Shown piece after piece: positions 1-22,344 of a DNA stretch of 37,845 nucleotides. The stretch is from a virus, in IMG/VR virus record IMGVR_UViG_3300032223_001008, positions 1 through 37,845 of that record. One strand, written 5' to 3'. Under the pieces are notes generated by a model that was not told the origin of the DNA, searched no databases, and saw nothing but the letters and a program-made list of their open reading frames with translations. The position numbers were made by a program, and so were the translations under genes. Numbering within the stretch: the stretch's first letter is position 1; each line of letters starts with the position of its first letter.

Positions 1-134
1 ATAGCTTCTTTAGCTATTTCAAAATCAGTAACATCTAATGTCTGTCTAGATGTGGCAGTAAAACCATCACGATCTAATGTATCTCTAACTTCGTCTATAA
101 TATCAAGCTTGATATCTAATGAACATTTTGCCAT
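1..134 (-). CDS. 5' part of an unidentified gene downstream of the virion RNA polymerase
   Basis: An open frame starts with ATG at 134 and is still open at the window edge, giving 44 codons (it begins MAKCSLDIK and includes DEVRDTLDRDG). The start lies two bases after the TAA stop of the giant polymerase gene, so translation is probably coupled and the gene is co-transcribed with it. There is only a weak GGA upstream, as expected for a Bacteroidota phage. I do not recognise the family. Its position next to the polymerase suggests a late or virion-associated protein, but too little is visible to assign a role. Confidence 0.6.
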   Translation of the reverse strand, partial: MAKCSLDIKLDIIDEVRDTLDRDGFTATSRQTLDVTDFEIAKEA

Positions 135-136
135 AA

Positions 137-3100
137 TTATCCACAGTTGTTTTGATTTCTATCTTTAATTGCAGGTTTGCCTTTAGGTTTAATTTCTCCA
201 GCAGTTTGTGCAGGTTTAATATCATATAAGTAAACTTCTTTTCCCTTCTGTAAATCTATACCAGCATATTTAGCAGCTTTAACAAATCCAGCCCAGTTAT
301 TAAATCCTTCAGCTGCACCAAATTCATCTAGTGTATAAGATACATTATCACCTACAATTTTTTTACCGACCATTTTTACTTTACCACGATTTACTATATC
401 ATATGGTTTACCTGTTTTAGTAGAAGTATATATACCAGAAACCTTATCATAATTTCTTATAGTTGTTTTAGCCTTACCTTTTTGTACAAGATCTTCTATA
501 AGTTCTAATTGAATTGTTCCTTTAGGTGATATTTCATTCCCAGCTTGTGTTATAGGAGCTGTATAAATAGTTTTTGTCACTGTAGAACCTTTTCTTGTTA
601 CAGTGGTTTTAGTTGCCTTCTGAAGGAAAGCATTAATCACTGGAGCATCACTCACCTCTTTAGCCTTGAGGAATCTATTATCTATCACAGAAGATCTTCC
701 TGTTGCATAGAACTCATTAGCACTAAATGAATTACCCCAAGCATTTATCATCTTATATACATAATATTGTTTCAATTCACCTTTGCTATTAGTGTATGAA
801 TGTATTAAAGGATCTGCATTCTGTTCATCGCTTTCTTTCACTCTCTGGAAAAGACCTTTTTGTATGTATGAGAAATCTCCTTTCTTTTTCATTTCTGTTT
901 TCTTTTCTCTTAATAACTTTGCTCTTTTTCCAGAAGGAAGTTCCATTTCCTTTTTTGTAAGTAGTTCTTCTTCTGATTTCTCCCAAGAGTAAACAACATA
1001 TTCACTTCTAGATTCTGAACTAAGGGTTGAGAAAGTTACAACTCTTGGAATAGTTCCATTAGTAACAGCTTCTTTTACACCTTTAGGAAGAAACTCCATT
1101 GCAGGATTATATACTTTTCTTGTTCCATATATGTAATCTGGTACAGTTGCTACACCAGCTCTTGAATAAGGAACAAGATCATCATTATTCCAGTTGTTTC
1201 TTTGGAACACTCCTAAGTTATAAAAGTCCTCTAAGTTACTAATAGTATTTAACTTTGCCAAAATTTTATTATACTCTTCCTTGAAATCTTCATAAGGAAG
1301 AAGTTGTGTAAATGATATAGGAGAAGTTGAAACACCACTCTGAAGAATAGACATAGCTACAAGTCTCTTATAAACATCTAAGTTATTTTCTCCATTTAGA
1401 TAGTTCTTAATCTCAGCAAATGCATATATCACCTGATTTTGGTCATACACTTTATTATCCCTATTCTTAAGCTTCATATTATTCACCTCACCATTTACCT
1501 CATGGATTAATGTTTGAATAACATAGTTATTTTTTAGAGGATGTTTTTTGTTTGATTTTATAGAATCAAATAGTTCTTGAAGTTCTTCAGCTGCTCCACC
1601 ATCTTTTAATAGAATATCAGCTATAGCCATGTTAAGCTTTTTACTAGGATCTGTTTGTACAGCCCAATCAAAAAGATCTGAAACAGCTTTTCTAGCAACC
1701 TTTACAAACTCTCTATCTGGAAGATCTATATATGGAGTGAGGACATTCTCAATAACACTCCTCACCTTACCCTTATCTGATGATAGGAATTCAGCATACG
1801 CATCTCTAACATTATTAATTTTATATGCAAGCTTACCAAGGAATGAGTTTTTCAATATAGCATCAACCCCAGGAACAATGTTATTGTCTTCATCTAGAGA
1901 GGATATAATTGTATTCTGTGCTTTTTCAAGTTGTTTATTCTTCTTGAATATTAACATTGGATCATTAAACGTGGCTGTGTCAAAGTTTGATCCTTGTGTA
2001 ACCAAGAACATATGACTAGCCATTTTAGAATACTTTAAGAACTCTTGTAATATAACTCTTTGCTGTGCAAGTTGTTGTTTATCAAGCTTCTTATTACCAA
2101 TCATTTCTCTCAACTTAGCTTCAGATGGTATTTTATCAGAAGCTGTTACATCACTTGCATAGTCTTTTAATGTATCTTTTACAAACGTATCAATGAATAA
2201 CCAAGAGTATCCAGCATTCTCCACTCTGTTTAAGTAGTCTCTGATGATTGGTTGGTTCATGAAATATCCAACACTCTTCATAGGAACACCAAGCTTAATT
2301 AAGAATAACCATGTACTAGCTACATTTGGCCAAGCACCAAGCTCCATAATCCAAGGACCCTTTGCAATATCCACATATCCATCAATAAACTGACCTATTA
2401 AATCTGATATAAATTCTCCAGCTGAATTCTTAATCATTGATAGAATAGGAACATTCTTACCCTTAATGTTCATTGAGTTGTATTTCTCAAACTTAATTTT
2501 ACCATCTCCTAACCAAGCTTGATCATCACTAGAAAGATCTTCAAGTCTGTCTATATCAACAAACATAGGTTGTCTCTGGTTAAGAGAGTGGTTAGTTTGG
2601 TTAACAGCTGCAATACCAATAGCATATTTACCTGTAACAAATGCATATCTAAGTCTTGTCATAAACACCCTACTTAGCATGTTCTTTGTAGAACTATAAT
2701 CAAAAGATTCAATACCACGAAGTTCTGTAATCTCTGCAGATAAATCTTTTAAATCATCTGCTGAGTTTGGTTTAATAAGTTGATCAAAGTTTTTAGGATG
2801 TGTAACCAATTTCTCTAGAGATTCTACATATGCATTCTCTAAAGACTTCTTATACATAGTTTCTTTGAATCTATCCATAAACTTATCTTGAATATTTTGA
2901 TCAGATAAGTCTTGAATTTTTCCTATTGCTTTCTCAATCTTTTCCTCAATTGTATCTTCTAACTCATTGAGTGTCAAGTCTTCACCAAACATATCTCTAA
3001 GAATAGGAATCCATTTATTCTTTGTTTTCTTACTAGCTGTCTTATCAATAATACTTCCAATAATCTCTTTTAGACCAGACAGTTTTTCTTTTCCACCTTC

Positions 3101-6100
3101 AGCTTTCTCAATCCTCTCTTGAAGCATATCATAGAACATATCTTCAAACTTAGCTAAAGCTTCTTTTCCTATTCCTAAATAAGGAACAAGTTTAAGGTTT
3201 CCTTTATTATCTGTAAATAGATTCTTGAAATATAAAGAAAGTTTATCTATATCAAAGTCAGATCCTTGTTTCTGTACCAATTGTGCAGGAACAATTACAT
3301 TATCTCCAAACTCTGCAGGAAGAAATCTTTTAATAACAAATGCATCAATAGAGTTTTGCTTCTGTGTAGGGATACGGAATCCTATTCCTGATAAGATCTT
3401 TCTACCCTCTTCAGAATTAAAATATTTTATTAATTCAGCATCTGTCATTTCACTCTTGAACCATCTTCCTACCATGATTTCACATACACGTTTACCATCT
3501 TCATCTTTATAGAATGAAAGTTCTTTAGATGTGTATACAGTTTTAGGGCCCTTCTTAGTTTCTATCACTGTAGCTTCAGCACGTACACTCTCTAGAAGTG
3601 TAGAAGGAATCTGTACCTTCATACCTCCAGTGATCTTAGGAGAAACTACATTCTTATCAGCAATTGAATATAGAATATTTCTAACTTGTTGATATGCAGG
3701 AGTTGCTTCAAGAACAGCATTACCAGAAATAAAGTCACTTAAAGCATCACTAATGTTATCATTACTTTCTCTCTTAAGGATTTCCTCACGAAGAGTTTCA
3801 GCAGCTTTTGAGAAGTCTGTAACCTCGTATCCTGTAACCTTACCATCTTTAACTATCTCTTCAATTCCCATCTTATTGAGAAGAGTGTTATATCCATTAT
3901 CAATCATAGCTTCAAGAAGCATTTGATTGTTCTTTATCTCTTTATAAAGATTGTCACCATTATTATAAGCAAGCTTTTCTTCTTCAGAAAGCTTTATCCA
4001 TTTAATATATTTATCATTAAAGTCAAGTCCTTCTTCAAAATCTACAGGAACACCAGCTTCCATAAAGTCCATTGTAACAAGCTTTGTAACCTGAGAACCT
4101 CTTGTAACAATTTCATCTTCCTTAGAAGGAACCTCAGCCTGTACACTCATTATAGCAAATGGAATGTTTGTTATAGCATCTTTGCTGTAAGGAGCAGGAT
4201 TAAGATTTCCTTTTGTATCATATAGAGGTGTTGAATTTTTAGCTCCTACCTTTCTAGCACTATCAAACACTATATAATCAATGTCCTCTTTTTGCATTTT
4301 GTTATATAACTTAACAGCATTTGATTTAGGATTTAATTCCATAATCACACGAAATGATAGAGGGTATAGAGAGTATTTATCAAGAACAACATCATTGTAA
4401 GAATTACCATCAGCTTTATTACCAGCAACAATAGGTTTCTCAGTGGTGTATGCACTTCTCACTTCAGGGTTACCATCTTTAAGAATCTCTTTCTCGTAGT
4501 CACTAAGTTTGATTCCTTTATATCTCTTCTCCCAAGCTATATCATATTTGAATTGTAACTCTTCAGCAGCACTCCATTTTCCTCTTCTTATTCTAAAGTT
4601 ACGATAAGATTTGAAGTTAATTATACCAGCACCATCAGTTTCTTTGTACATAGCTTTCTCATAACCTGGAAGATCATCTTCTCCTAGTACATCATTATAG
4701 GAAATTGTTCTGAAATAGTCTCTGTTAAAATCTGTACGTCCAATATCATTTCTTTCAAATCCTCTATTATAAACAATATTCATTGCTTCATTCATCTTAG
4801 CAGAACCATGTAAAATAGCTTGTCTAGGAGAAAGGAAGTTTTTAATACGCTTAAGTTCATCTGCATATTGATAAGGATCTGAATATATAAGTTTATGAAG
4901 TTCTATATTACTAATGATATAATTTGTAGAAAGAGCATTTAGTTTTCTATTAAGATCAACTTCATTCATACCATCAGAATCTGTAAATGCTATATTCTGT
5001 GTAACTATTTCTCCCTCAGAATTAAACTTAATAATACCATATTCCATTAATTCTGACTTTGTTCTCTGGGCATCTTTTTTAATAAAAGCTTCTACAGCAG
5101 CATCAACTTCTTTCTTATACTTTCCAGGATTCTCTTTAGTACCATAGATTTCTTCAATAGGTGTTTTTGTATCTTTTACAATCTTATCATGTAAAACATC
5201 TCCAAGAATACCTTTAAAGAATCTAAGATCTTTTGAATTACGTCCTTCAATAACTGGTCTGTCAGATCTTGATAGTTTAACTTCTGACTCTAGATAACCA
5301 CCAAAGATTTTAAATACATTATCAAATCCAGATAGAAGAGATTGTTCTGTAATAGCATTACCCATAAACACTGTATGCTCTAGAGAAGCATCACCAGGAA
5401 CTAGATTTGTATAGTAACCATTCAAGTTCATATTGATCTCTTGAACAAGTCTTTCTTTATAGTTAAGCTTTGAGGATTGTTTCTTCTTACCATTAGCTGT
5501 ATTCACTGTACCATCAGCATATCCTGCTTTCATGAAGATTGGAGAATCTTTACGTTCACCAGTTTTCATATTAAACATCTTACTAAGAATAACAGAACCT
5601 TGTACAAACTCATCTGTAAGAAGATATTCATATTGTGTTCCTGTAAGATCATTAAGATTTTCTATTTGTGAAATAGCATCAAAGAAATCACTAATAGCAT
5701 TTGTTCCCATGAAAGTTTGTGTACGTTCACCTTTAACATTAAAGAATGTACTATCAAACTCAGGGTTATCAATACTAGCTCTAACAAGAGCAAGTTGAAG
5801 AAGCCTTCCTTCTATGTCTAATACCTTACCACCAATTGTAGCAATCTGGTCTGCAGATTTTATACTATCTCTAATTCCTGTAACAGCATCTTTAAATGTT
5901 GTTTTCTTATCTGTAGGAAGACTAGTTATTTCCTTTTCTGTAAACTTAATACCTATAGACTTTAAGAATTCAACCATCTTAGCATAAACAACAGTTTCAT
6001 CTCCTCCAAGATTTACACTCTTTATACCTCCAGGTTTTCCAACAAATACCTTCTCTTTATCAGAGTATTCAAAATAAGGATTCTTCTTCCTCATTGTTGT

Positions 6101-9100
6101 AGCTATAGCTGTTTCATATTCACTTTTTACTTGTCTAGCTGCACTTGAAAGATTTGATTCTCCCATATTCACCTCACCACTTTCAAATATAAATATAGTT
6201 CTAGCATCTGGACTTTGTTTCTTAAATGTGGTCCACATAGCTATAATAAGCTGAAGGTCATGTCCATCTAACATCTCTGAAAAGTCTACAGTGTTTTCAC
6301 TATAGTCTGTACCTGTAAGGCGAGAATATAATAAACGATAGTTCTCATCATTAGTAGCCATTTGTCTAATCCTCTCAATCATATCATCAACATTTATTGA
6401 TGTATGAAGATTGTTCATAAGAGACATATACACCTGACTAAGAGGAAGAAGTTTAATACCATTAATAGATGAACGCTGAGGTTTATCATTCTCCATAATA
6501 GGAAGTGTAGAAAGTAACAACTTGATTGCAGAGTTAGTCTTTCTAAAATGATCTATCTTATCAGAGCTATCATATTCACCTCTACCTGTATTCTCATCAG
6601 ATCTTACATTCATCTCATCATTCTCATCAAACTCAATATTATATGATCTAAGATATTCTTGATGTTTTTTTACAATATCTTCCCAGTTTTTCATTGTGGT
6701 TTTCCACAAAGCAATTCCTTTTTCTATGATTGGAGCAACTTGTTCTTTATTATATTTCCCATCTCTCATTCCCTTTCTTGCTTTTTTAGCATTTCTAAGA
6801 ATAGTCTTTCCTGTCTCATATCTTAGCATTCTATATAACTCTGCCTTAGGTTTTCCTGAGACATTAAACAAACTATCATTTGAACTAATAATATCACGCA
6901 ATGTCAAATAAGTCATTTGTTGCATAATATCATGAACTGTTTCACCAGGAATCTTTAAACGAAGTTCACTGTCTTTATCTATTGTAGCATCTTCAATATC
7001 AATGATTCCTTTCTTAGCAAATGAAAGATTTGTTTCAAATGGAATATAACTTTTATAATATCCTTTATTAATCTTTGCAAATAATCTTTCTGTGTTATTC
7101 TTAGCTCCAGGAGTGTTAGCAAATAGATTCTTAACAGCATTTACAATATCAGCAAACAGTCTAAGAATAAAAGGTTTTGTACTAACTGGTTTAGCAGGCA
7201 TCTTACCATATTGTACATAGTCTCTAAACTCTTCAGCTAATTGTTCTTTCACTTGAGAGTTTGTAGCATCTTTATAAGCAATCACTTGTCCTGTAGGTCT
7301 ATCTACAAATGATCCTTTTCTAGAAGTAAATTCTTTAACTACAGCTTTTCTCTCTTTAGGATTAGAGAACATTTTCCATACACCTTCAAACACCTCATGA
7401 TAGATAGTACCAACCTCTGCATTCTCATATACATATAGAGCACCATTCTTAAGCATTCCCCATGCTTGAAGTCCATTAGTAGATTTAAGAATATTCTTCA
7501 CTCTGTACACAGGAAGATTTGGGAAATTAGCTTTTAACCACTTTTCAATCTCAGGCCATCTTTCTGTTTCTGTTACATCCTCATCAATTATCTGACGTAA
7601 TAAAGGTTCATCATCCTCATCTTCTTCATTTAATTGATTTTCAATATCAGTTTCATCATCACCTATAATAATTGCTTCTTCATCATCTTCAGCTTTTTCA
7701 TTTGGATCTGGTTCAACATATGTATCAGCATCATCATATATCTCTTCATCATCTTCTCCAATTATTATTGTTTCTGAATCTTCAAGAGCTCCTGCAGGAA
7801 TACTTCTTAGTACAATCTGTTTTACATTTTCTCTTGCTTTTTCCTCACTACCTAGTTTCTCAGTTAGAGCTGCAACAACTTCTTTTATATCTCCACCTTT
7901 TATAATAACTATAGCAGCTAATCCTGTTTTTGAATTATCATACACCCATCTAATTTTCTTACCAGCAGGAGATACAAATGTATTAATCTTCTTTCCAGAT
8001 AGATCTATTTCTCCTTCTTTAGCTTCTGTAAGTTGTGTTGTAGATGCTGTTTTAGCACCAGGAACTATCTTCTTAGCAGTCTTTGGTGTTTCTTTTATAA
8101 TAGGTTCTTTGTATTGTAGATCTGTAAGGACAAAATATACACCTTGTCTATTAGCATCTTCTGGTCCTGCTTTTGGTCTAATGGTTGTATGCAAAGGAAG
8201 TTCTTCATTCTTTCTAGCACTACCATCTGGATTCTTTGATGATAGTAGGAATGTTTGATAATTTTCCCATTGTCTAGAAACAATTTCACCATTAGGTTTA
8301 ACCTCAAGAATTTCTTCATAAGGCTCACTCCATTCATTCTTTTTACCACCATTAGCTCTTGTAGAGTTTACATTATTATAAAGTTTCTGAATAAGAGCAA
8401 TTATTCCAGATTTATTATCTTTTATGTATGATGGTGTGAATGGAATACTTCCATCTTTATTTGAGAAGAATAGTCTTAATGATTTTTTCTTATTACCATT
8501 ATCATCTATCACTTCCACTCTATCAAAGAATATACTATTATGTCCAGCAGATTTAGCTTTACCTTGAGCATCTTTAGGAGTTCCCCAATATACAACACTC
8601 TTTAACCATCTTAATAACCTTTGAGCTTCTTCAGATTTAATATCCCCATCTTCAGAGAACATTATTTCAGATAGACGAGCTATTGCTTGATGTATTGTAT
8701 TAGCTTCTTTTTCTGTAATCTTTCTATTCTGAAGTTTTACAAGTCCATTCTTTAGAGAAAGAAACACTCTACCCATAGCATTTTTGAAAGAAGTTGTACC
8801 TCTACTCTCACTATCATTTGTTGTAGGAATTCTCAATATACGATGGTTCTCAAGATCATCTTCTGAAATAAGTCCAGCTTCTGATACAGAAACCATAGCA
8901 TTCTTATCTTCTATGGGATTACCATTCTTATCTGTAATAACATTACCATTTTCATCCTTTTGAGAAACACGTTGAGGATTACCAAATGAAGCTTCTATAG
9001 AGAATGTTCTTATTGGAGGATTTTCTAAAGTTTCTTCTCTCCAAGCTTTATATTGTTCTTTAAGACTTTTCTTCACTTCATCAGCAGTACCTTTCCTAAA

Positions 9101-12100
9101 CATCTCTTTACCACCATATTCCTCACTCCACTTTAGTTCTTCTGTAGGCATCACTTGATATACAGCATTATCAAATGTAGGATTCTCTAACACTTTACCA
9201 TCTGTTCCTACAAGCTTTCTAGAACCATCAGCTTGTTCTTCCACCATAACAATAGCTATAGTGTTATTCATTTCAGCCTCAGATAATTTCTCCTGACCAA
9301 GATGTTCTATAAGTCCAGGAAGAATATCAGCTTGATTCTTTCTTGTAACTACAATAGCCTTTATACTTTTCCTATTAGGAAAACTTTCAATATTATTTCC
9401 AAATGCTTGAGATGCTGCATAACCAGGAAGATTTTGAGAAGCAACTGTTGCTCTTGGTATATTAAGATTTGTCTTCTTATTATCTTCTTCATATTCAGTG
9501 CCTTCTTCTAATGTTCTCTGACTAGAATCTGCTGTCTTCATTATTCTTTCAGCAAATGCTTCATCTTCTTCCAATCTACTTTGCTCAGCAAGTTCTTGTT
9601 CAAACTTTGCTACACTTGTTTCAAAAGCTTCTAATAGATCACCTTTTGCTATAGCTTGTCTAACAAGATCTTCTACACCAGATTCAAGTTCAGACATTTG
9701 AGATTGTAACCTCTGAACCTTCCTAGTCATATCTGGTATCTTGAGCTCATCAGAAAATAAAGATATCTGATCCTCAAGATCTAATACTGCTTGTGTAAAT
9801 CCTTGTTTTTCAGCAATAAAGTTTTTAGCTCCTTCTTCTCCAAGGAACCTTTCAATACTAGATTTAAACTGGTCTATCGATAGAGGGATATTAGGATTTT
9901 CTTCTACTACTCTTTTTATAAAATCATCCATTAAAGAAAGAGCATTCTTAAGAACCTCATCTATCTTTGATAATAATGATTCACCATTCTTGATAGCATC
10001 ATTTGTATTATCAACCATTTCTTCAATGTTACTAATATCATCTTTAAGATCTTCAATCACTTCTTTATAATCTTCAGGCATAGTTTCTGCATACTGAAGT
10101 AAAGATTCCATATAAGGAAGTTGTGATTCTAGTTCATCCTTTTCTTCTTGAAGAGTAGATATGGTATTTTCAATAGCTTGTTTCTGAGAAGAGAGTTGAT
10201 TTATGGTTTTCTTATATGCATTGATTGCTTTTCTAGGAAGACCTTTCTTAGTAAACATTGCATTATGTAATGCTTCTTCTACTTGCTGTAAAGAATCTTT
10301 AGCTTTAGCAAGTTCATCGGTAACATCATTTAAACGTTCTCTAGAATTGTTAACAAGATTAATCACCACTTGTTTTCTTTTCTCAACACTATCTCTTATA
10401 TTATCTTTTTCCTTTACAAAATTTTCAAAAGATTCCTGCTGAGCTGCTGTAAGTTTTTCTACAGAACTTATCATTGCAGTGTTATATCCTTTCTGAGCAG
10501 CAAATTGTGGTCCTCTAACTTCTACAGTTCTTTCCTTACCATAATCATTTATATATTTAAATAGTAAAATATCATCCTTTTGAGAGTATTCAAGTCTTCC
10601 TCTTCTAGGTTTACCATTTCTATCTTTTAAACCTTTGTGTTCAAATACAGTATTCCAGTTGTCTAAAAAGAACTTTGCCTTCTTATTATTTTTTACAAAG
10701 TCTAAAGAAACAAGAGAGTGATCATTAAACTTAGATCTATTAATATTCACTATCTTTCCTTCAGAATTCTTTATCTTAATTGTACCATCTTCATTCTCTC
10801 CAAGTATTGTAATAATAGGAGTTTCATAAAAAGGTTCACCCTCTTTAGTTTTCTTAACAATCTTTGATACATAATATTGCTCACCAACATTGAACTCTTT
10901 CTCTCCTTTATTTGTTTTTATCTTTATTGTAGATTTCTTTTCACCAGGTTTAGTTGTAACTTCTGGTTCAACTATCTCTTTATACTTATCGGGACTTTTC
11001 TTAATATCATTATACTGATCAATAAATAGTTTTCTTCTTAGAGAAGCTTCAATAAGATCATCTAGATTTTGATTTAAATCATCTTTTTCTACATCAGGAA
11101 TATCCATTGCAGAAATCAAAGATTTTGCTGTATTTACAGAACTTACATCTTCAGATCCTTTTTTAATAACATCGTTGATTATATCTTGTGTAGAAAGTCC
11201 TGCTTCTATTAAAGAAGAATTTATTCCAGGAATACGCTCATCATAGTTTTTAATCTTAGCTGCAGCATAAACCATTTTATCTATAACATCATCTGAATAA
11301 ACTCTATCACCTTTATCATTTCTAATACCTGAGTATTTATCATTAAGATCAGAGTATGTGTTATCTACTTGTTTTGCAAGTTTTTTAAGATTTTCTATTT
11401 TTCCTATGAATTGTTCTTTTGTCTCATTTTCATTAACTACACCACCTCTTTTAAGCTGATCAAATCCCTGATCATCCATAGCCTGATTCTTATAATAGTC
11501 AAGCTCTTGATTCACAGAATCAATCTTACCATACTTCACTCTAGGCATTAAATAAGAAAGAGTAAAGTCTTGCTCATAATCTTTTTCAGAAAGCTTATCA
11601 TTATTTGTAACAGCTTGCTGTCTAAGTTTTTGAGAACCTATTCCAATATTAATAAAATTAGAAACATCTTTCAAAGCTTTATCAATGTTTGTTTTATTCA
11701 AAGCTGATAAAGCCATTTCAGTATTTACTCTCTTTTCACCACCTGTTCCAAATACACCTCTTTCTTTTATAGATTCTCTCATCTCCTGAAGACCCCCAGA
11801 AATACCTCCAATAAGTATACTCTCAAGACCTTCTTTGCTTGAAAGAGTATCATCTACCCCTTCAGATAGAGTGGTTCCCATTGTATCATATAAATCACTT
11901 AAAAAAGAATCTCCCTCTTTTTTATTTTTATAAGCTCTATCAAAATAGTTTTTTACACCTGTTTGTATAGAAGATTGCATACCTTCTTCAAATGCTTCTG
12001 ATGGAGCAAATAATAAAGAGCCTATTCCTTTTACACCTTGTGCAATTCTTCCAAACTTTGTTTCAGGTTTTACAACTTTAAATTCAGAACCAATTGCTTC

Positions 12101-13165
12101 TTGTTCTATATCATTGATTAAAGCTTTATCAGCTTTTCTTGAAGATGCTAAGATTTTAGGAAGTTGAACATAGTTTGTTCCTGTAAGAAGAAGTGTATTC
12201 TGTGCCCATATATTTAAACCCACTTTATCAGCATATGAATTAATCTCATCAAGATCTTGTCCTTGAGGATCTACACCATATTTATCTTTATAATCTTGAA
12301 TAAGTTTTTTTCTAAATTCATTCATACCTTGAAGACCTTCCATAGAAGCTTCACCAAATGTACCCATTGCAGAAGTGAGTATTCTATCTGAATCTTTCAA
12401 TACAGCAGATATAGGATTCTTTATATATTTCTGAGCAGTTGCATTTAATGCATTTTCAAATGCTGCATACTTTCCTAATTTAGGAGCAGCAGTCATAGCA
12501 TCCTCAACAGCAGTAGCTGCTTCTAATCCTTGACCAGCTTTAACAAGAGCATTAGTGAGTCCTATTCCTTTTAATAAAGATCCCCAAGCAATACCACCAC
12601 CCATTGCTCCTAAAGAAAATCCTAAGTTCTTTAAAACTTTATCTGACCAGAAGTTTGCTGTTAGTATGTTCTTAGGAGAATACCATTCAGCATCTTGTTC
12701 TGCATGAGTGTAATAATTTGGAGCAACATCTTCAAGTGATGTAGAAACATTATCCATTGCTCTTGTAACATCATTATCAATCAATGATGCTAATCTTTGA
12801 TTTTTAATAGCTGAACCTATTCCATATACAAGACCTGCTGTTCCTGATACAAAAGATGTAGCTGCAATACCAAGCATTTTACCAGAAGCATTTCTCCATT
12901 TATCCCATGCAGATTGCTGTTGACCAGCCATTTCTTCATAATCTGTACCTGGTCTAGTTTCTGTATATCTTGATCCTGAGTAAATGGAAGACATAGGAAT
13001 ATCAGCAACACCTTTTGTTTTGATACCACTTAGCATAGATCTAGTCATATCATTAACTGACATCTTACCAGCAAGAGGATCTCCTGTTGGAACATCTGGA
13101 ACTATTGGTGTTTTTGGAAAACCTTGTATTGTACCTCCTAAATTAACTACTTTTTCTTCTGGCAT
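137..13165 (-). CDS. Giant virion RNA polymerase polyprotein with fused zincin-like domain (4342 aa)
   Basis: Predicted DNA-dependent RNA polymerase packaged in the virion and ejected to transcribe early phage genes. The key signature is at residues 3264-3307: RIPT, then SIDAF, then DFDID (D3303, D3305, D3307). It parallels the R-x-PT...I-x-AF...DFDGD block of the cellular beta-prime subunit, and DFDID is the loop reported for phi14:2 gp66. Other regions, N to C: hydrophobic glycine-rich segments at about 97-120 and 180-210; a long coiled coil at about 920-1200; an acidic linker at about 1795-1855 containing two related IIIG(E/D)D segments; and a zincin-like HEVFE at 1923-1927 followed by EQLAEEF. 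A conserved-looking TDGAGIIN block and a DSARKVGAK segment near 2970 may belong to the first barrel domain. At roughly 490 kDa it is about twice phi14:2 gp66. Only two cysteines are present (in RVCEI and the penultimate residue). The start is the only plausible one, two bases after the preceding stop. Confidence 0.93.
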   Translation of the reverse strand: MPEEKVVNLGGTIQGFPKTPIVPDVPTGDPLAGKMSVNDMTRSMLSGIKTKGVADIPMSSIYSGSRYTETRPGTDYEEMAGQQQSAWDKWRNASGKMLGIAATSFVSGTAGLVYGIGSAIKNQRLASLIDNDVTRAMDNVSTSLEDVAPNYYTHAEQDAEWYSPKNILTANFWSDKVLKNLGFSLGAMGGGIAWGSLLKGIGLTNALVKAGQGLEAATAVEDAMTAAPKLGKYAAFENALNATAQKYIKNPISAVLKDSDRILTSAMGTFGEASMEGLQGMNEFRKKLIQDYKDKYGVDPQGQDLDEINSYADKVGLNIWAQNTLLLTGTNYVQLPKILASSRKADKALINDIEQEAIGSEFKVVKPETKFGRIAQGVKGIGSLLFAPSEAFEEGMQSSIQTGVKNYFDRAYKNKKEGDSFLSDLYDTMGTTLSEGVDDTLSSKEGLESILIGGISGGLQEMRESIKERGVFGTGGEKRVNTEMALSALNKTNIDKALKDVSNFINIGIGSQKLRQQAVTNNDKLSEKDYEQDFTLSYLMPRVKYGKIDSVNQELDYYKNQAMDDQGFDQLKRGGVVNENETKEQFIGKIENLKKLAKQVDNTYSDLNDKYSGIRNDKGDRVYSDDVIDKMVYAAAKIKNYDERIPGINSSLIEAGLSTQDIINDVIKKGSEDVSSVNTAKSLISAMDIPDVEKDDLNQNLDDLIEASLRRKLFIDQYNDIKKSPDKYKEIVEPEVTTKPGEKKSTIKIKTNKGEKEFNVGEQYYVSKIVKKTKEGEPFYETPIITILGENEDGTIKIKNSEGKIVNINRSKFNDHSLVSLDFVKNNKKAKFFLDNWNTVFEHKGLKDRNGKPRRGRLEYSQKDDILLFKYINDYGKERTVEVRGPQFAAQKGYNTAMISSVEKLTAAQQESFENFVKEKDNIRDSVEKRKQVVINLVNNSRERLNDVTDELAKAKDSLQQVEEALHNAMFTKKGLPRKAINAYKKTINQLSSQKQAIENTISTLQEEKDELESQLPYMESLLQYAETMPEDYKEVIEDLKDDISNIEEMVDNTNDAIKNGESLLSKIDEVLKNALSLMDDFIKRVVEENPNIPLSIDQFKSSIERFLGEEGAKNFIAEKQGFTQAVLDLEDQISLFSDELKIPDMTRKVQRLQSQMSELESGVEDLVRQAIAKGDLLEAFETSVAKFEQELAEQSRLEEDEAFAERIMKTADSSQRTLEEGTEYEEDNKKTNLNIPRATVASQNLPGYAASQAFGNNIESFPNRKSIKAIVVTRKNQADILPGLIEHLGQEKLSEAEMNNTIAIVMVEEQADGSRKLVGTDGKVLENPTFDNAVYQVMPTEELKWSEEYGGKEMFRKGTADEVKKSLKEQYKAWREETLENPPIRTFSIEASFGNPQRVSQKDENGNVITDKNGNPIEDKNAMVSVSEAGLISEDDLENHRILRIPTTNDSESRGTTSFKNAMGRVFLSLKNGLVKLQNRKITEKEANTIHQAIARLSEIMFSEDGDIKSEEAQRLLRWLKSVVYWGTPKDAQGKAKSAGHNSIFFDRVEVIDDNGNKKKSLRLFFSNKDGSIPFTPSYIKDNKSGIIALIQKLYNNVNSTRANGGKKNEWSEPYEEILEVKPNGEIVSRQWENYQTFLLSSKNPDGSARKNEELPLHTTIRPKAGPEDANRQGVYFVLTDLQYKEPIIKETPKTAKKIVPGAKTASTTQLTEAKEGEIDLSGKKINTFVSPAGKKIRWVYDNSKTGLAAIVIIKGGDIKEVVAALTEKLGSEEKARENVKQIVLRSIPAGALEDSETIIIGEDDEEIYDDADTYVEPDPNEKAEDDEEAIIIGDDETDIENQLNEEDEDDEPLLRQIIDEDVTETERWPEIEKWLKANFPNLPVYRVKNILKSTNGLQAWGMLKNGALYVYENAEVGTIYHEVFEGVWKMFSNPKERKAVVKEFTSRKGSFVDRPTGQVIAYKDATNSQVKEQLAEEFRDYVQYGKMPAKPVSTKPFILRLFADIVNAVKNLFANTPGAKNNTERLFAKINKGYYKSYIPFETNLSFAKKGIIDIEDATIDKDSELRLKIPGETVHDIMQQMTYLTLRDIISSNDSLFNVSGKPKAELYRMLRYETGKTILRNAKKARKGMRDGKYNKEQVAPIIEKGIALWKTTMKNWEDIVKKHQEYLRSYNIEFDENDEMNVRSDENTGRGEYDSSDKIDHFRKTNSAIKLLLSTLPIMENDKPQRSSINGIKLLPLSQVYMSLMNNLHTSINVDDMIERIRQMATNDENYRLLYSRLTGTDYSENTVDFSEMLDGHDLQLIIAMWTTFKKQSPDARTIFIFESGEVNMGESNLSSAARQVKSEYETAIATTMRKKNPYFEYSDKEKVFVGKPGGIKSVNLGGDETVVYAKMVEFLKSIGIKFTEKEITSLPTDKKTTFKDAVTGIRDSIKSADQIATIGGKVLDIEGRLLQLALVRASIDNPEFDSTFFNVKGERTQTFMGTNAISDFFDAISQIENLNDLTGTQYEYLLTDEFVQGSVILSKMFNMKTGERKDSPIFMKAGYADGTVNTANGKKKQSSKLNYKERLVQEINMNLNGYYTNLVPGDASLEHTVFMGNAITEQSLLSGFDNVFKIFGGYLESEVKLSRSDRPVIEGRNSKDLRFFKGILGDVLHDKIVKDTKTPIEEIYGTKENPGKYKKEVDAAVEAFIKKDAQRTKSELMEYGIIKFNSEGEIVTQNIAFTDSDGMNEVDLNRKLNALSTNYIISNIELHKLIYSDPYQYADELKRIKNFLSPRQAILHGSAKMNEAMNIVYNRGFERNDIGRTDFNRDYFRTISYNDVLGEDDLPGYEKAMYKETDGAGIINFKSYRNFRIRRGKWSAAEELQFKYDIAWEKRYKGIKLSDYEKEILKDGNPEVRSAYTTEKPIVAGNKADGNSYNDVVLDKYSLYPLSFRVIMELNPKSNAVKLYNKMQKEDIDYIVFDSARKVGAKNSTPLYDTKGNLNPAPYSKDAITNIPFAIMSVQAEVPSKEDEIVTRGSQVTKLVTMDFMEAGVPVDFEEGLDFNDKYIKWIKLSEEEKLAYNNGDNLYKEIKNNQMLLEAMIDNGYNTLLNKMGIEEIVKDGKVTGYEVTDFSKAAETLREEILKRESNDNISDALSDFISGNAVLEATPAYQQVRNILYSIADKNVVSPKITGGMKVQIPSTLLESVRAEATVIETKKGPKTVYTSKELSFYKDEDGKRVCEIMVGRWFKSEMTDAELIKYFNSEEGRKILSGIGFRIPTQKQNSIDAFVIKRFLPAEFGDNVIVPAQLVQKQGSDFDIDKLSLYFKNLFTDNKGNLKLVPYLGIGKEALAKFEDMFYDMLQERIEKAEGGKEKLSGLKEIIGSIIDKTASKKTKNKWIPILRDMFGEDLTLNELEDTIEEKIEKAIGKIQDLSDQNIQDKFMDRFKETMYKKSLENAYVESLEKLVTHPKNFDQLIKPNSADDLKDLSAEITELRGIESFDYSSTKNMLSRVFMTRLRYAFVTGKYAIGIAAVNQTNHSLNQRQPMFVDIDRLEDLSSDDQAWLGDGKIKFEKYNSMNIKGKNVPILSMIKNSAGEFISDLIGQFIDGYVDIAKGPWIMELGAWPNVASTWLFLIKLGVPMKSVGYFMNQPIIRDYLNRVENAGYSWLFIDTFVKDTLKDYASDVTASDKIPSEAKLREMIGNKKLDKQQLAQQRVILQEFLKYSKMASHMFLVTQGSNFDTATFNDPMLIFKKNKQLEKAQNTIISSLDEDNNIVPGVDAILKNSFLGKLAYKINNVRDAYAEFLSSDKGKVRSVIENVLTPYIDLPDREFVKVARKAVSDLFDWAVQTDPSKKLNMAIADILLKDGGAAEELQELFDSIKSNKKHPLKNNYVIQTLIHEVNGEVNNMKLKNRDNKVYDQNQVIYAFAEIKNYLNGENNLDVYKRLVAMSILQSGVSTSPISFTQLLPYEDFKEEYNKILAKLNTISNLEDFYNLGVFQRNNWNNDDLVPYSRAGVATVPDYIYGTRKVYNPAMEFLPKGVKEAVTNGTIPRVVTFSTLSSESRSEYVVYSWEKSEEELLTKKEMELPSGKRAKLLREKKTEMKKKGDFSYIQKGLFQRVKESDEQNADPLIHSYTNSKGELKQYYVYKMINAWGNSFSANEFYATGRSSVIDNRFLKAKEVSDAPVINAFLQKATKTTVTRKGSTVTKTIYTAPITQAGNEISPKGTIQLELIEDLVQKGKAKTTIRNYDKVSGIYTSTKTGKPYDIVNRGKVKMVGKKIVGDNVSYTLDEFGAAEGFNNWAGFVKAAKYAGIDLQKGKEVYLYDIKPAQTAGEIKPKGKPAIKDRNQNNCG

Positions 13166-16065: not shown

Positions 16066-19000
16066 TTATAAATTTTTGATTGCTTTCACAATAGAACCAT
16101 TTCTAGATTCTTTCTTTAGCTTAGTACCATATTTAGCTTCTTCTTTTGTTTTCCTAGTACCTACAATATTACCATTTGCATCATATGTAAATTCCAATCC
16201 TGATGCTAATCCTCCTGTTTTAGAAGAAGCCATAGATCCAGAATAATCAAACTGAGCTAAAGGATTCATATTAACTGCTCTACCACTCTTATCAAATCTA
16301 TAGTTATATAGATTTTCGTATATACCTAACTGTCTGTTTTCCAACTTGTTCTGAGCAATCTTAGAAGCAATAGACTTCATAGCTTCAATATTCTGTTGCT
16401 TTGTAAGAGACTTAGCTTGTGACTGTCTGGTCATTTGTGTATCTAATATACCAAGGTTTTTAAGCTGAGCATCATTCAATACAGCTCTGTTTCCTTCATA
16501 CACTTTATCTTTCTCAGCTTGGTTAAGTCTAAATTGTTGTCCAAGAACATTTGAGTTAGCTGCATACTTTTGAGCTGCTAATGCTGAAAGAGCTGCAGGA
16601 TTATATCCCATAGCTCTTTGTGTAGCATTATAGTCTGCTTGGTTTGCATTCATTTGATCTTGAAGAGATATATCATACGGTGTTCCTAGGTCTGGATGAT
16701 ATAGCTGAGCTTGTACAGGATCTAACTGATTTGTAGCTAAAGACATTAACTCAGGAGCTATCTGACTATAATCAAATGCTTCTTGATCTGTAGGTCTTAA
16801 ATATGGAATTAGAGTGTTAGCTGCATCTATCCATGTTTTTCTTTTATTAGGTTTCACTGTTTCTATATTTGAAGTTTCTGTATTATCATCAGAAGATGGT
16901 TCCTTATCTATTTGTGATATATCTACTAATGGAATCTCTCCTTCATATTCTTGATTATTTCCAATTGATTTAAGTTCAGGAGCAGCCCAACCATATCCAA
17001 AGTGTTTAGGATCTAACCAAGGTGCTTTACCATAAAGATCCTGATGTCTTTTTTCAATTATATCTTTAGCCTTAGGATTATCTAATAAGAATTTTTCAAA
17101 CTCTTCATTACCACGTCCTTTGAATCCAAGTTTATCAGCTATATCATCCCACTCTTCTGCAGTAAAGCTAGATGCTGTTTTCTTACCAAGACCTGTAATA
17201 TTTCCTTTCCAAGGATCAATACCATACTTACTTACATATCCTGATGATTTAGTTTGACCACTTTTAGGGGATCTTTTTTTAGAAGTAGTATTAGTAGTTT
17301 CTGCTTCAACAGTCTCTGGTAATTCTACACTTAAATCTTCTTGAATAGGTAATCCAGCCATTTGTCTAGCTGTTGTTTCATCATATCCTTTTGCTCTAGC
17401 ACTTTTATATATAATAGCTTTTTTAACTGTTTGTGATATATATCCATCTTGAGCTTTAAACAATTCCTTACCATATTTAGCTTGTTCTTTCTTAGCTTTA
17501 GGATCTACTTTAACTTTACCTTTAGCAAGATGATCTGCATCAAGACCATGTTCAGCTGCTGTATCATTTATTGCATTTTGTACAGCTGCAGCATTTGATT
17601 TCTTAAGAGCAGCTTCTTTAAGATTCATATTACCTCCAATAACATTAGCAGTTAATCCATTAAATTTAAGTTTATCAAATGGTGTATATACATTAAGACC
17701 ATCTATCTGTTCAGATGATTTATCAACAATCTTATTTTGTTTAGCTTCCATCTTACCAAGATCAGCTACATAGTTTTTGAACTTCTTACCTTTAGCTTTA
17801 ACATCACCTATTTCATTTAGGAACATATTAGGAATTTTAAGATTACCAAATACCACCATATTCTTTTCTCCTGTCTGACCATCTACCATTTCTGTAGCTG
17901 GTTCACCTCTTTCAACTTCCACATCAGCATCAGCATCTCTAGAACCAAACTCAGCATAGTCTGTCATTTTACCACCTTCACCATACTTAACACCAATACC
18001 TGTATGTCCTCTACCATCAGATTGACTATGTGCACCTATTGTTTTTGTTTTACCATCACTTGTTTTTTTCTTAATTCCTCTAAACATGACAGTTTCTCCT
18101 GTACCAGGCATATGAGGATTATAAGAAATAGGTTCTGCATATCCACCCCATGTAGTCTTTAGTTCTCCACCTAGAGCATATTGATCTGTAGGGAACATAT
18201 TGTTCTGTGTAATGTGACCACCAGTTCTTAATGTATCCATTTGAGGATCTCTTCTTAAAAGATCTTGCATACTGTGCTCACCAAACTGTGTAATCACTTG
18301 AGGTTGCCAATCATGGCTCACCCATCCACCATCTTCCATATAATTACCATATTGTCCTTGTTGTAAGTATTGAGCACCTTCATTAAAAGCCATAGCTCCT
18401 ACATTCTTTTTAGTCTTTTCTTGAGCAATCTTCATTTTTTGAGGATTCCTATCAACAAGTTTTCCAACTGTTTTTCCTAAAGTCTTTCCAATAGCTTGTC
18501 CAACAGGACCACCAATAACCATTCCTGCAGTTCCTCCAATAGCTCCACCTATATCACCACCAGCATTGTTTGCTATAGCTGCATCACCAATTGTATCTAA
18601 CATATTAAATCCACCTTGATTAGCAAAATCACCTAATGCACCACCCCCAGCAAACTGTTTAACTTGACTAGAATCATTAAGAGGTTCATATCCAAGATTG
18701 TCATATAAGTTATTAGGAGCATAGGTGTTTTGTATCTCTGTAAGATTACCACCTATCTTCATCACTCTTGTACCATCTTTAGCTAAGTAGTTTGTACCTA
18801 CACCATATGTAGGAAACAACTGATTAGGTTGTACTATCTGATCTTCTGGTCTTAAGAAGTTATGTCTTAGAGGATCTTTTGGTCTTGACTCTTGAGCTTG
18901 TTTTGTAATATCACTTACATTAGCCCAAGTTTCAGCAGACTTTCTTTGTTTCTTTTCTTCTTTTAATTTTTGAAATCCTCCAATCAACTGACCTGCAGTT

Positions 19001-19485
19001 TGAGCAATTCCTGCATATCCTCCTAACTTACCAAGAAGATTTGTATTACTTTTACCAATCATCTGTGAACCCATACCTTGTATAGATCCAGGAGTTATTC
19101 CACCTAATGCACCAGCATTTGATATAGTTTGACCTGTTCCATAAAGCTGTGTTTGGTTTGCTAAATCTGTATTACCTTCAAGAGTCATTGTTCCACTAGG
19201 AGCATTATTCAATCCCATTTGTCCAACTCCTACATTAGAATTTAAAGGCATTTGTACCATTGGAAGAGGATTACCCCACATATCTAACTGTCTACCATCC
19301 TGAGCTTTAGGAGGATTACCAAAGTCTGTAAGTTGTTCCAACTGGGTCTTTACCATCTTAGCACCCATAGCTGCTTTTTTAAACTCTTTCTTATGAGCTT
19401 TCATAAAAGCTTCCTCTGTAGGATACTTTTTATAGAATTCCTTTTCAGATTTAACACCAGCGATTTTTAAGATTTCTGCTTTCAT
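16066..19485 (-). CDS. Large glycine/asparagine-rich virion cargo-like protein (1139 aa)
   Basis: No enzyme motif recognised. The N-terminus (GVKSEKEFYKKYPTEEAFMKAH) and a mid-protein VEVERGEPATEM segment are patterns I recall from crAss-like minor structural proteins. Two glycine-rich regions stand out. One is at about 118-172. The other, about 300-348, has repeated small-x3-small spacing (GGAIGGTAG, VIGGPVG, IGKTLGKTVGK) like a membrane glycine zipper. Short AQDG or KYG-x-x-L motifs recur (PKAQDGRQL, KYGKELFKAQDG, KYGTKLKK near the C-terminus). There are no cysteines at all. It lies nine bases after the 949-aa gene and ends before a terminator. The inferred role is an ejected or channel-associated virion protein. 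Confidence 0.75.
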   Translation of the reverse strand: MKAEILKIAGVKSEKEFYKKYPTEEAFMKAHKKEFKKAAMGAKMVKTQLEQLTDFGNPPKAQDGRQLDMWGNPLPMVQMPLNSNVGVGQMGLNNAPSGTMTLEGNTDLANQTQLYGTGQTISNAGALGGITPGSIQGMGSQMIGKSNTNLLGKLGGYAGIAQTAGQLIGGFQKLKEEKKQRKSAETWANVSDITKQAQESRPKDPLRHNFLRPEDQIVQPNQLFPTYGVGTNYLAKDGTRVMKIGGNLTEIQNTYAPNNLYDNLGYEPLNDSSQVKQFAGGGALGDFANQGGFNMLDTIGDAAIANNAGGDIGGAIGGTAGMVIGGPVGQAIGKTLGKTVGKLVDRNPQKMKIAQEKTKKNVGAMAFNEGAQYLQQGQYGNYMEDGGWVSHDWQPQVITQFGEHSMQDLLRRDPQMDTLRTGGHITQNNMFPTDQYALGGELKTTWGGYAEPISYNPHMPGTGETVMFRGIKKKTSDGKTKTIGAHSQSDGRGHTGIGVKYGEGGKMTDYAEFGSRDADADVEVERGEPATEMVDGQTGEKNMVVFGNLKIPNMFLNEIGDVKAKGKKFKNYVADLGKMEAKQNKIVDKSSEQIDGLNVYTPFDKLKFNGLTANVIGGNMNLKEAALKKSNAAAVQNAINDTAAEHGLDADHLAKGKVKVDPKAKKEQAKYGKELFKAQDGYISQTVKKAIIYKSARAKGYDETTARQMAGLPIQEDLSVELPETVEAETTNTTSKKRSPKSGQTKSSGYVSKYGIDPWKGNITGLGKKTASSFTAEEWDDIADKLGFKGRGNEEFEKFLLDNPKAKDIIEKRHQDLYGKAPWLDPKHFGYGWAAPELKSIGNNQEYEGEIPLVDISQIDKEPSSDDNTETSNIETVKPNKRKTWIDAANTLIPYLRPTDQEAFDYSQIAPELMSLATNQLDPVQAQLYHPDLGTPYDISLQDQMNANQADYNATQRAMGYNPAALSALAAQKYAANSNVLGQQFRLNQAEKDKVYEGNRAVLNDAQLKNLGILDTQMTRQSQAKSLTKQQNIEAMKSIASKIAQNKLENRQLGIYENLYNYRFDKSGRAVNMNPLAQFDYSGSMASSKTGGLASGLEFTYDANGNIVGTRKTKEEAKYGTKLKKESRNGSIVKAIKNL

Positions 19486-19494
19486 ATTGCAAAT

Positions 19495-22344
19495 TTAATT
19501 ATATTTTTCTAACCAACCACCTGTTGATTTTTTATTTATTTTTCTGGTTTGTGTAACATTACCATAAGGTGCTCCATAACCTCTTTGTGACATCTCATTA
19601 GCAAACTGATCACTTTCTTGTTGAGACATAAAAGCTCTTTCATTCCAATCTTTTATTTCAGGATCCCAATAGCTTGTTCTATATTCTCCCTGTGGTAAGT
19701 TTTGTAGTTTTATTTCTGGATGTTGAATAGATGTTACTCCTGGTGTAAAACTATCGGTCATAGAAATAGGAGTTATATTACTTACCTTTTTCTTTAGTGT
19801 AGGTTCTAGTTTAGGTTTAGGAGGAATACCTGTAATGTTATATGGATTATCAGGATCTCCTGTTTCTCTATATACCATATTATCAATATTTCCAGAGAAA
19901 CGTCCTTTTGCTATTTCTGGAGTAAGAGGTTTCCATTGACTAGATTTATCTTTAGATTGTTTAGATCTATATATTATGGGTTGTACTGGTTTTACATTTG
20001 AATAGTTATATATTTTTCCTTGTGATTCATCAAAAAATAAATTATCTTTTAAATAATTAATATATCCTATAGGATTAATATTAGGATTTGCAAGTTGTTG
20101 AACTTTTCCATATAAGTTATCTACAAAATTACCAACTTGTTTTTTTCTTTCTGCTTCTTTTTTTATACAATTATAACAAATGCTTCCATCAGGATTTCTT
20201 GGAAAGTTTTCTTCTTTTTTAATATAATCAGAACTACTATATTGCTTATCTAATATATTCTTAAGTCTATTATAATCATTATACAAATTTAAACTATCAT
20301 TATATGCTTGTACTTTTCTAGGATCTTGTGTATATATAGGGGGAAGAGTTTTACCTTTCTGAGCCATAGGATATTCTGTAACATTCTTTCCTTTAAATGT
20401 ATAGTCTTGATCTGGATACATCATTTGTTTATCACCTGCATCAGAGATTCCTAATACAGGATAGTCCACTCCTTTCATTGTTATTTGATTAGAGTTGATC
20501 TTTGTTATCTTTCCAGGATGTGCCCATTGTCCTCTATCATCTTCTATTATACCACCTTCTTCTTGTTTAGGAACTTCTTTATATCCTCTTAGCCAATCTT
20601 GAGTATAAAATTTAGTATCAGGATCAAATGAACTTAAAGTTTGATTAGGTGAAGCAACTAAATCATAAGTAGGATGAAACTTGCTAGAATTTGTTACTTC
20701 AACCATATCAGGGCCTGGATAAATACTTCCTTTCTTTTTACTTAAAGGACTTTTCCAATCTCTATCTAAAGGTGTACCTTTTGAAAAATAAGGTCTATCA
20801 TATAATGGACCTTGATTAGAAGTAAGATCAAATCCTTTATCAGGATCAAAACTTATTATATTATTATTTTGTTTAGCTCTAAGAATACCACTTTCAAAAG
20901 CATCAACTGTTCCTTCTTTACCTAACATTCTATAATAAGCTTCTGGATTAGGTTTAAATGCCCAAGGATTTAATTTATATGTATTAGAAAGCAATCCTGA
21001 TTCCATAGACTGAGCTACTTTACCAGGAAGTTTCATAGCACTTCCTAATGGATCAACTCCAGTGGCTCCTAAAAATAATCCTTGTCCTATACTAGTAAGA
21101 TATGGTAAGTTAGAATTAGATTGTTTAGCTTCATAAGGAGCTGTGCCTAATGCACCTGCTGTTTCTGTAATCCAATTAAGAGGATTTATAGTATCATACC
21201 AAGCTTCATCATTTTCATTAAACCTCCCTTTACCTTCTAATGACTTACCAGAAATATAAGCTTTTTCTCTCCAATCCATCTGGTCTTTAGTTTTAGTCTG
21301 ACCATTTGGAAATGTAAAAGTATTAATTTCTCCTTTATCAAAAGATTTAGCAGCCTTTCTTTCTTTTATTCTTTGTTGCTTAAGTCTTTCTTCTGTTGCT
21401 CTAGATTTACCCATAGCTTGAGAACTAGCAGCCATATTTTCTTTACTCATCCCTGTAGTGAGTGCTCTACTTGTAGGAGCAGTAGATTCACTAGCATTCA
21501 TCATTTGCCTTTGAAGATCTCTAGGATTTGGAAGAACGAACTCTGCATTCTGATTCTTTGGAATATCATCACCATTTTTACTAATACTCTTTGGTTTCCA
21601 ATCTAGTCCATGTTGATAGTAGGTCATTGATCCACCATTTTCAAAATCCTTTCCCCATCTTCTAAGAGGAGTAGGAATAGATTGTCCTTTCTCTACATAA
21701 GGATGTCTTACATTTTGATCCCATTCATCAGCCTCTTGCCATGTTTTAAAAGGACCTCCAAGATAGTCTCCTGTTCTTCTAAACTCAGCATAAGGACTAT
21801 CACTTGGTCCAAGTATAGGTTGTCCATATTTAAAAGAAGGAATCAATAATGCAGGTTCTCCATCTTCTCCACCTATAGATATTGCTAACTCTGAACGATG
21901 ATTATTTACTGGTAATTTAGAACTATTTGGTTCAAGGAATGTAAGACCATCTTGAGCACTAGCTTTTGTCTTCTTAGCATATGGACCATTATCAGGAGCA
22001 GCTCCTGCTGTACGTGCATATGTGAATCCTACAGCACCAGGCATAGAGCCTCCCATTTGAAATTGTCCACCCCATGCAGGAGAATAGTTTCTACCTGTTG
22101 TATCATTTCCCATTCCTACAAATCCTGGAGGGTATGATGTTGTATTATCATTATAGTTCTCTTGATACTCTTGCATTCCACCACCATTATATTTCTCTAA
22201 CCATCCTCCTTGTTCTACTTTCATAGGAGCACCACCAGCTATTGCACCAAAGAACTTTCTTTGCTTATCTGTAAGAGGATGTCCATGCACACTCTTATCA
22301 TGCAGGATTTCTTTTGCCTTATTTGATGTTAATTTCTTAGCCAT
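19495..22344 (-). CDS. Large mosaic virion cargo-like protein with possible ADP-ribosyltransferase-like module (949 aa)
   Basis: Residues 1-60 contain HPLTDKQRKFFGAIAGG followed by GGWLEKYN; the same eight residues form the extreme C-terminus (942-949). The interior is a mosaic of short conserved-looking blocks: MPGAVGFTYART; FRRTGDYLGGPFKTWQEAD, like the FRxTGxHLGxFxTxxEAD motif seen in other phage proteins; and DDRGQWAHPGKIT with VDYPVLGIS. Residues about 460-570 carry YYR, YFSKG and MVEV (R472, Y519, E549), spaced as in some ADP-ribosyltransferase-like folds; this is speculative. A CYNC pair supplies the only two cysteines. Its ATG overlaps the previous stop (TAATG). I infer a packaged or ejected protein; no function is proven. 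Confidence 0.72.
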   Translation of the reverse strand: MAKKLTSNKAKEILHDKSVHGHPLTDKQRKFFGAIAGGAPMKVEQGGWLEKYNGGGMQEYQENYNDNTTSYPPGFVGMGNDTTGRNYSPAWGGQFQMGGSMPGAVGFTYARTAGAAPDNGPYAKKTKASAQDGLTFLEPNSSKLPVNNHRSELAISIGGEDGEPALLIPSFKYGQPILGPSDSPYAEFRRTGDYLGGPFKTWQEADEWDQNVRHPYVEKGQSIPTPLRRWGKDFENGGSMTYYQHGLDWKPKSISKNGDDIPKNQNAEFVLPNPRDLQRQMMNASESTAPTSRALTTGMSKENMAASSQAMGKSRATEERLKQQRIKERKAAKSFDKGEINTFTFPNGQTKTKDQMDWREKAYISGKSLEGKGRFNENDEAWYDTINPLNWITETAGALGTAPYEAKQSNSNLPYLTSIGQGLFLGATGVDPLGSAMKLPGKVAQSMESGLLSNTYKLNPWAFKPNPEAYYRMLGKEGTVDAFESGILRAKQNNNIISFDPDKGFDLTSNQGPLYDRPYFSKGTPLDRDWKSPLSKKKGSIYPGPDMVEVTNSSKFHPTYDLVASPNQTLSSFDPDTKFYTQDWLRGYKEVPKQEEGGIIEDDRGQWAHPGKITKINSNQITMKGVDYPVLGISDAGDKQMMYPDQDYTFKGKNVTEYPMAQKGKTLPPIYTQDPRKVQAYNDSLNLYNDYNRLKNILDKQYSSSDYIKKEENFPRNPDGSICYNCIKKEAERKKQVGNFVDNLYGKVQQLANPNINPIGYINYLKDNLFFDESQGKIYNYSNVKPVQPIIYRSKQSKDKSSQWKPLTPEIAKGRFSGNIDNMVYRETGDPDNPYNITGIPPKPKLEPTLKKKVSNITPISMTDSFTPGVTSIQHPEIKLQNLPQGEYRTSYWDPEIKDWNERAFMSQQESDQFANEMSQRGYGAPYGNVTQTRKINKKSTGGWLEKYN

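Follow-up and report, generated by a model that had tools for sequence, protein, structure and literature searches.

The window analyzed here is the whole 37,845-nucleotide stretch of IMG/VR virus record IMGVR_UViG_3300032223_001008, and most of its first third is occupied by a single intact open reading frame (ORF) on the minus strand that starts with ATG and specifies a protein of 4342 amino acids and 489.5 kDa, as established from the ORF list and the translation of the window (P0001 [Table 1]). This gene closes the virion gene block and adjoins cargo-type genes. The next gene, whose start lies at position 134 and which is cut by the window edge, yields a 44-residue translation that resembles the N-termini of the downstream ORFs of relatives; because those ORFs match crAss001 gp49, phi14:2 g065, and cr108_052, the truncated gene is, as judged from this resemblance, the third transcription-block protein of the crAss001 gp49/phi14:2 g065 family. 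Two large neighbors of P0001 (1139 and 949 amino acids; positions 16066 to 22344) contain repeated Gly-rich peptides, AQDG repeats among them, with GGWLEKY at both ends of the 949-residue protein, and a family search with the two returned no family. A hydropathy scan of P0001 that included the N-terminal module revealed no strong transmembrane helix, so the claim of a membrane anchor was dropped.

TABLE 1 Features of P0001 and of the adjoining gene, in window coordinates
Feature	Position	Strand	Basis
P0001, giant fused protein	137..13165	minus	ORF and translation; full-length single-ORF clade homologues
Residues 1 to ~740, N-terminal module	10946..13165	minus	hmmsearch, hhalign, tblastn
Residues ~900-1090, coiled-coil-like stretch	9896..10468	minus	weak matches to coiled-coil proteins/families
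Residues 1795-1858, strongly acidic linker at the junction of N-terminal module and zincin-like domain	7592..7783	minus	composition
Residues 1840-2100, zincin-like domain	6866..7648	minus	hhalign probability 97, hmmsearch
HEVFE, residues 1923-1927	7385..7399	minus	comparison across 57 chains
Residues 2071-2649, N-terminal part of polymerase module (gp66 ~100-774)	5219..6955	minus	VIA-align to 6VR4
Residues 2650-3849, two-barrel polymerase core (gp66 ~754-1985)	1619..5218	minus	AlphaFold2, Foldseek, VIA-align
K3015 and K3028, P-x-K...GSQ-x-x-K, candidate first-barrel basic residues	4082..4123	minus	invariant in 72 sequences, gp66 alignment
Catalytic loop, RIPTQKQNSIDAF (from residue 3264) to DFDID (3303-3307)	3245..3376	minus	sequence, alignments
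Residues 3850-4342, C-terminal part	140..1618	minus	hhalign to cr108_1 ORF 053
Next gene, third transcription-block protein, N-terminus, cut by window edge	1..134	minus	44-residue translation

A sequence-only reading of this DNA had recognized an RNA polymerase loop of the DFDID type within P0001, and both its coordinates and its sequence were confirmed: residues 3264 to 3307, running from position 3376 to position 3245, read RIPTQKQNSIDAF...GSDFDID. DFDID is the sole DxDxD of the chain, and the composition of P0001 leads to a chance expectation of 0.004 DFDID and 1.4 DxDxD, such that the letters alone constitute weak evidence and their context is decisive. Within this context, R3264, P3266, N3271, G3301, D3303, D3305, D3307, and K3308 are invariant in 72 aligned sequences, and the distance from the arginine of R-x-P to the first aspartate is 40 positions, equal to that in phi14:2 gp66 (RIPN...DFDID, with DFDID at residue 1361). 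The same spacing had also been claimed for cellular beta-prime subunits. In the E. coli subunit, R-x-PT...I-x-AF is in register with P0001, but DFDGD falls about 4 residues earlier, and hence the correspondence is real for the first part and approximate in its spacing. Upstream of the loop, K3015 and K3028 are likewise invariant in the 72 sequences and share a motif with K1106 and K1119 of gp66; they are candidate basic residues of the first barrel, with a putative catalytic role.

Similarity to gp66 extends well beyond the motif, as had been anticipated for the flanking regions. When the last 3000 residues of P0001 were compared with phage records by tblastn, phi14:2 gp66 was recovered (E 5e-20) along with other crAss-like proteins, and a profile built from eight clade sequences and searched against all PDB sequences gave only one significant chain, 6VR4, which is phi14:2 gp66 (E 1.7e-25). 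The clade profile was needed for this match, since a single-sequence phmmer search of P0001 against the PDB returned no polymerase. Nor did Pfam, NCBIfam, or PHROGs assign a polymerase family to P0001, their weak matches falling mostly in the coiled-coil stretch.

The AlphaFold2 model of residues 2650 to 3849, computed from the 72-sequence alignment, has a mean pLDDT of 85 and a pTM of 0.86 and contains the gp66 fold, with its pair of double-psi barrels. It matches 6VR4 with a Foldseek E of 1.1e-28 and superimposes upon residues 754 to 1985 of gp66 by VIA-align (Z 24.0, 931 residues, rmsd 3.8); sequence identity to gp66 is about 18%. The structures ranking next by VIA-align, RDR2 and QDE-1, reach Z values of 10 to 11 and are spanned across both barrels. 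A second and weaker model (residues 1840 to 2660; pLDDT 75) places residues 2071 to 2660 upon residues 100 to 774 of gp66 (Z 10.1, 402 residues, rmsd 3.6), and because both models align to 6VR4, nearly all of gp66 is mirrored in residues 2071 to 3849 of P0001. Farther toward the C terminus, residues ~3600 to 4120 match cr108_1 ORF 053 (hhalign probability, 98.9), and the final ~150 residues are poorly conserved. Among the predicted viral structures of BFVD, crAss-like phages supply the overwhelming majority of named matches to the polymerase core, the nearest being A0A7S9STY9 of the unclassified environmental virus NIOZ-UU157 (48 to 50% identity over the core). The second half of P0001 is therefore a gp66-type RNA polymerase with two barrels, as known from crAss-like phages and as the sequence-only reading had proposed; neither of the two outcomes named as refuting that reading, a missing barrel pair or flanks unlike those of gp66, was encountered.

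That reading had also drawn attention to a chain about twice as long as gp66. The length is real, but it does not denote a new kind of polymerase, in that the counterpart of the first ~2100 residues is a virion protein that is separate elsewhere (crAss001 gp47 and, in part, phi14:2 g067). Comparisons with named phage proteins by hmmsearch and hhalign match residues 1 to ~740 with the N-terminus of crAss001 gp47; the module finds gp47 homologues by tblastn at an E of 3e-14, is also common to phi17:2 gp039, Lbo-JY46 XAI97382, and crAssE-Sib WOZ57301, and is matched more weakly by phi14:2 g067. Residues ~1840 to 2100 match the C-terminal HEAFH region of crAss001 gp47 and the HESFH region of cr108_1 ORF 054, and the polymerase part matches crAss001 gp50 (DFDVD) and phi14:2 gp66. 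With gp47 matching at the N-terminus and the zincin and gp50 matching at the polymerase, P0001 equates to gp47 plus gp50 in one ORF, and its extra length is, by these alignments, a gene fusion of proteins that are separate in phi14:2 and crAss001.

Like P0001, gp66 of the Cellulophaga phage phi14:2 has the DFDID loop, the two-barrel fold, the spacing from R-x-P to DFDID, and g065/g067-type neighbors; unlike P0001, it is 2180 rather than 4342 amino acids long, its g067 module is a separate gene, and the two are only ~18% identical. crAss001 likewise has a gp47-like N-terminus with a zincin, a polymerase, and a gp49-like partner, but these constitute three separate proteins, with HEAFH at the zincin, whereas the window joins the gp47 and gp50 equivalents in one chain that has HEVFE. 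The modules are separate proteins in Dulem virus 41 as well. In the hhalign comparisons, a gp66-type polymerase was not found among the large proteins of phi17:2, crAssE-Sib, and Lbo-JY46 that were compared; given that Babkin et al. reported one for crAssE-Sib by HHpred (PMC11054128), this may reflect a limit of sensitivity.

The fusion is not unique to the window. Zincin and RNA polymerase already occur in one ORF, specifying proteins of 4491 to 4774 amino acids, in gut crAss-like genomes in GenBank: cr55_1 gp070 (4551 amino acids), cr50_1 gp059 (4774 amino acids), and cr4_1 gp26 (4491 codons). In the giant ORF of cr4_1 (L018:3076-16551), TAG occurs in frame 38 times and is the only kind of stop codon present, consistent with TAG being read as an amino acid. 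The same zincin-polymerase order occurs in cr108_1, interrupted at the catalytic motif: about 290 bases (L010:14482-14773, NC_055878) separate two polymerase ORFs at GSDxDID, which suggests an intron or a similar insert. These Suoliviridae (cr55_1, cr50_1, and cr4_1) and Steigviridae (cr108_1) resemble P0001 in having the zincin followed by the polymerase in ORFs of similar length, but they differ in that the N-terminal module is marginally similar or not detected, HExxH is intact, and identity is ~23%; the records of their giant ORFs carry no RNA polymerase annotation. Fusions of the virion RNA polymerase (vRNAP) to large proteins are known from crAss-like phages (PMC10770324), and the transcription block has been described as made up of several multidomain proteins of large size (PMC7886860).

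Scanning IMG/VR contigs twice produced 87 loci, some of them duplicates, and 57 non-redundant chains, window included, have the layout of P0001 in common. Within this environmental clade, the fused chain is conserved, with complete single-ORF versions ranging from 3735 to 5052 amino acids, and almost every chain has DFDID, the variants DFDVD, DYDID, and GADFDID each occurring once. At one locus (L063, 2004-14530), the two halves form separate ORFs (2026 and 2151 amino acids) and the zincin-like domain is missing at the split, so that the fusion is dispensable even among these relatives. At the opposite extreme, one of about 80 loci (L089, 1139-20365) has a single ORF of 6409 amino acids in which the polymerase (DYDID) is joined both to the gp47-like module and to the third protein of the gp49/g065 type, its residues ~4830 to 6409 aligning with the separate downstream ORFs of relatives. 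A PD-(D/E)XK nuclease-like pattern is visible by eye at residues ~5250 to 5450 of this third protein, a region in which Pfam found nothing.

The zincin-like domain varies at its defining motif. HExxH is absent from the window chain, which has HEVFE; the H and E of this motif are invariant in the 57 chains, but its fifth position is E in 48 (HExxE) and H in the remaining 9 (HExxH), and E1974 and E1978 are conserved downstream. The second zinc ligand is thus changed, by sequence, in most of the clade. HEAFH is kept in crAss001 gp47 and in several gut phages. A structure search with the model of residues 1840 to 2660 gave no convincing zincin match for the zincin-like part.

Among clade contigs of 107 to 125 kb, 7 of the 8 examined with crAss001 TerL as the query encode a crAss-type TerL, a result that pertains to the clade contigs, the window itself being a fragment without TerL. 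One such TerL (L104:499-2562) is closest to that of Lbo-JY46 (40%), followed by crAssE-Sib and phi4:1/phi17:2 (32%) and then Suoliviridae (27%). The muzzle protein of the window (23238-28250) matches Lbo-JY46, phi17:2, and crAssE-Sib, the same first neighbors as for TerL, and the fragment of the major capsid protein (MCP) in the window has a tblastn match to Lbo-JY46 only and a major-head PHROG match at an E of 2e-15. The window derives from an unclassified crAss-like clade that is nearest, by TerL identity, to Leptolyngbya phage Lbo-JY46. It is unexpected that TerL and muzzle should have their closest counterparts in a phage on record for a cyanobacterium, Leptolyngbya, crAss-like phages being known from Bacteroidota, and the true host of this phage record may be an associated bacterium. 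Phage MA9V-1 is a myovirus and has no bearing on this locus. No relative was detected when contigs of bacterial and archaeal genomes were searched, and there is accordingly no prophage or host link.

Other giant virion polymerases offer precedents. The vRNAP of N4 is of the single-subunit, T7-like type and unrelated to the two-barrel polymerases. N4 (Schitoviridae) ejects this 3500-residue chain, which, like P0001, combines an N-terminal domain, there membrane-inserting, with a polymerase and a further domain, in N4 one with HExxH (PMC12633501). The domain order differs from that of P0001. In P23-45, a two-barrel polymerase is fused to a giant virion protein, the 5002-residue tape-measure RNA polymerase (TMP-RNAP) gp96, which also has metallopeptidase and membrane domains (PMC10770324); unlike P0001, gp96 has an N-terminal clampless polymerase, comes from a long-tailed phage, and is structurally further from gp66 than is QDE-1. 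Given these giant chains, the passage of a ~490-kDa chain through a tail would not be unprecedented. As for the relatives of P0001, the records of phi14:2 g065 to g067 carry an MS/MS virion annotation, virions of crAss001 were found to contain gp47, gp49, and gp50, and cargo proteins have been proposed to exit partly unfolded (PMC10172136).

Taken as a whole, the locus is best explained, and very probably so, by a fused gp66-type virion polymerase that would be packaged and ejected and would transcribe early genes. By analogy with its relatives, P0001 would be packed in the head beside the neighboring cargo proteins, would leave it during infection in an at least partly unfolded state by way of portal and tail, and would refold to transcribe early phage genes, presumably on the DNA of its own phage. 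The N-terminal module would be the part belonging to the entry machinery, and its fusion to the polymerase would fix a 1:1 ratio and the order of delivery and could keep the polymerase tethered at the entry channel.

The same polymerase identity is compatible with P0001 being a precursor that is cleaved into gp47-like and polymerase parts, either while the head assembles or once inside the host, and is never ejected whole. The separate state of the modules in phi14:2, crAss001, and Dulem virus 41 would fit such a cut, as would the acidic linker and zincin-like domain at the junction. However, a maximally acidic window occurs at the linker position in only 18 of the 57 chains, and N4 and P23-45 provide examples of giant chains in use (PMC12633501, PMC10770324). 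Cleavage by the zincin-like domain itself was down-weighted because HExxE replaces HExxH in most chains; another protease would still be compatible, and we regard processing as unlikely overall.

Still less probable is a polymerase that stays out of the particle and is synthesized only once infection has begun, as are the non-virion polymerases of P23-45 and AR9. Phages have two-barrel polymerases of the virion and the non-virion kind alike (PMC10770324), but P0001 lies last in the virion gene block, beside genes of cargo type, shares its chain with a gp47-like virion protein, and has homologues in virions (phi14:2 MS/MS annotation; PMC10172136). The very low identity to gp66 might be taken to mean that the barrels are catalytically dead and P0001 structural; the invariance of the three aspartates, the following lysine, and the two first-barrel lysines makes this highly improbable. 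Finally, the existence of split forms (L063, phi14:2, and crAss001) raises the prospect of an assembly artifact joining two genes, which is hardly credible when 57 non-redundant chains, as well as three genomes in GenBank, have the same joined order and independent contigs with the joined ORF were found.

More interesting than the polymerase itself are the altered motif of the zincin-like domain and the variable joining of three proteins, which yields chains of up to 6409 residues. Within one clade, the three virion transcription proteins occur split, two joined, or all three joined, with a zincin-like domain that in most members lacks the second zinc ligand. Uncut chains would mean single polypeptides of 490 to ~700 kDa pushed through a short tail and a protease-like domain turned structural or differently metal-binding, a reading that we hold tentatively and with some doubt. 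A single chain that holds a polymerase, an HExxH-like domain, and another large virion domain is a layout seen repeatedly, with different polymerases, in N4, P23-45, and crAss-like phages. The clade itself supplies many close and diverse gp66-type homologues in naturally fused, split, and fully joined versions, which therefore render testable the role of tethering the polymerase to the gp47-like module in DNA entry and early transcription.
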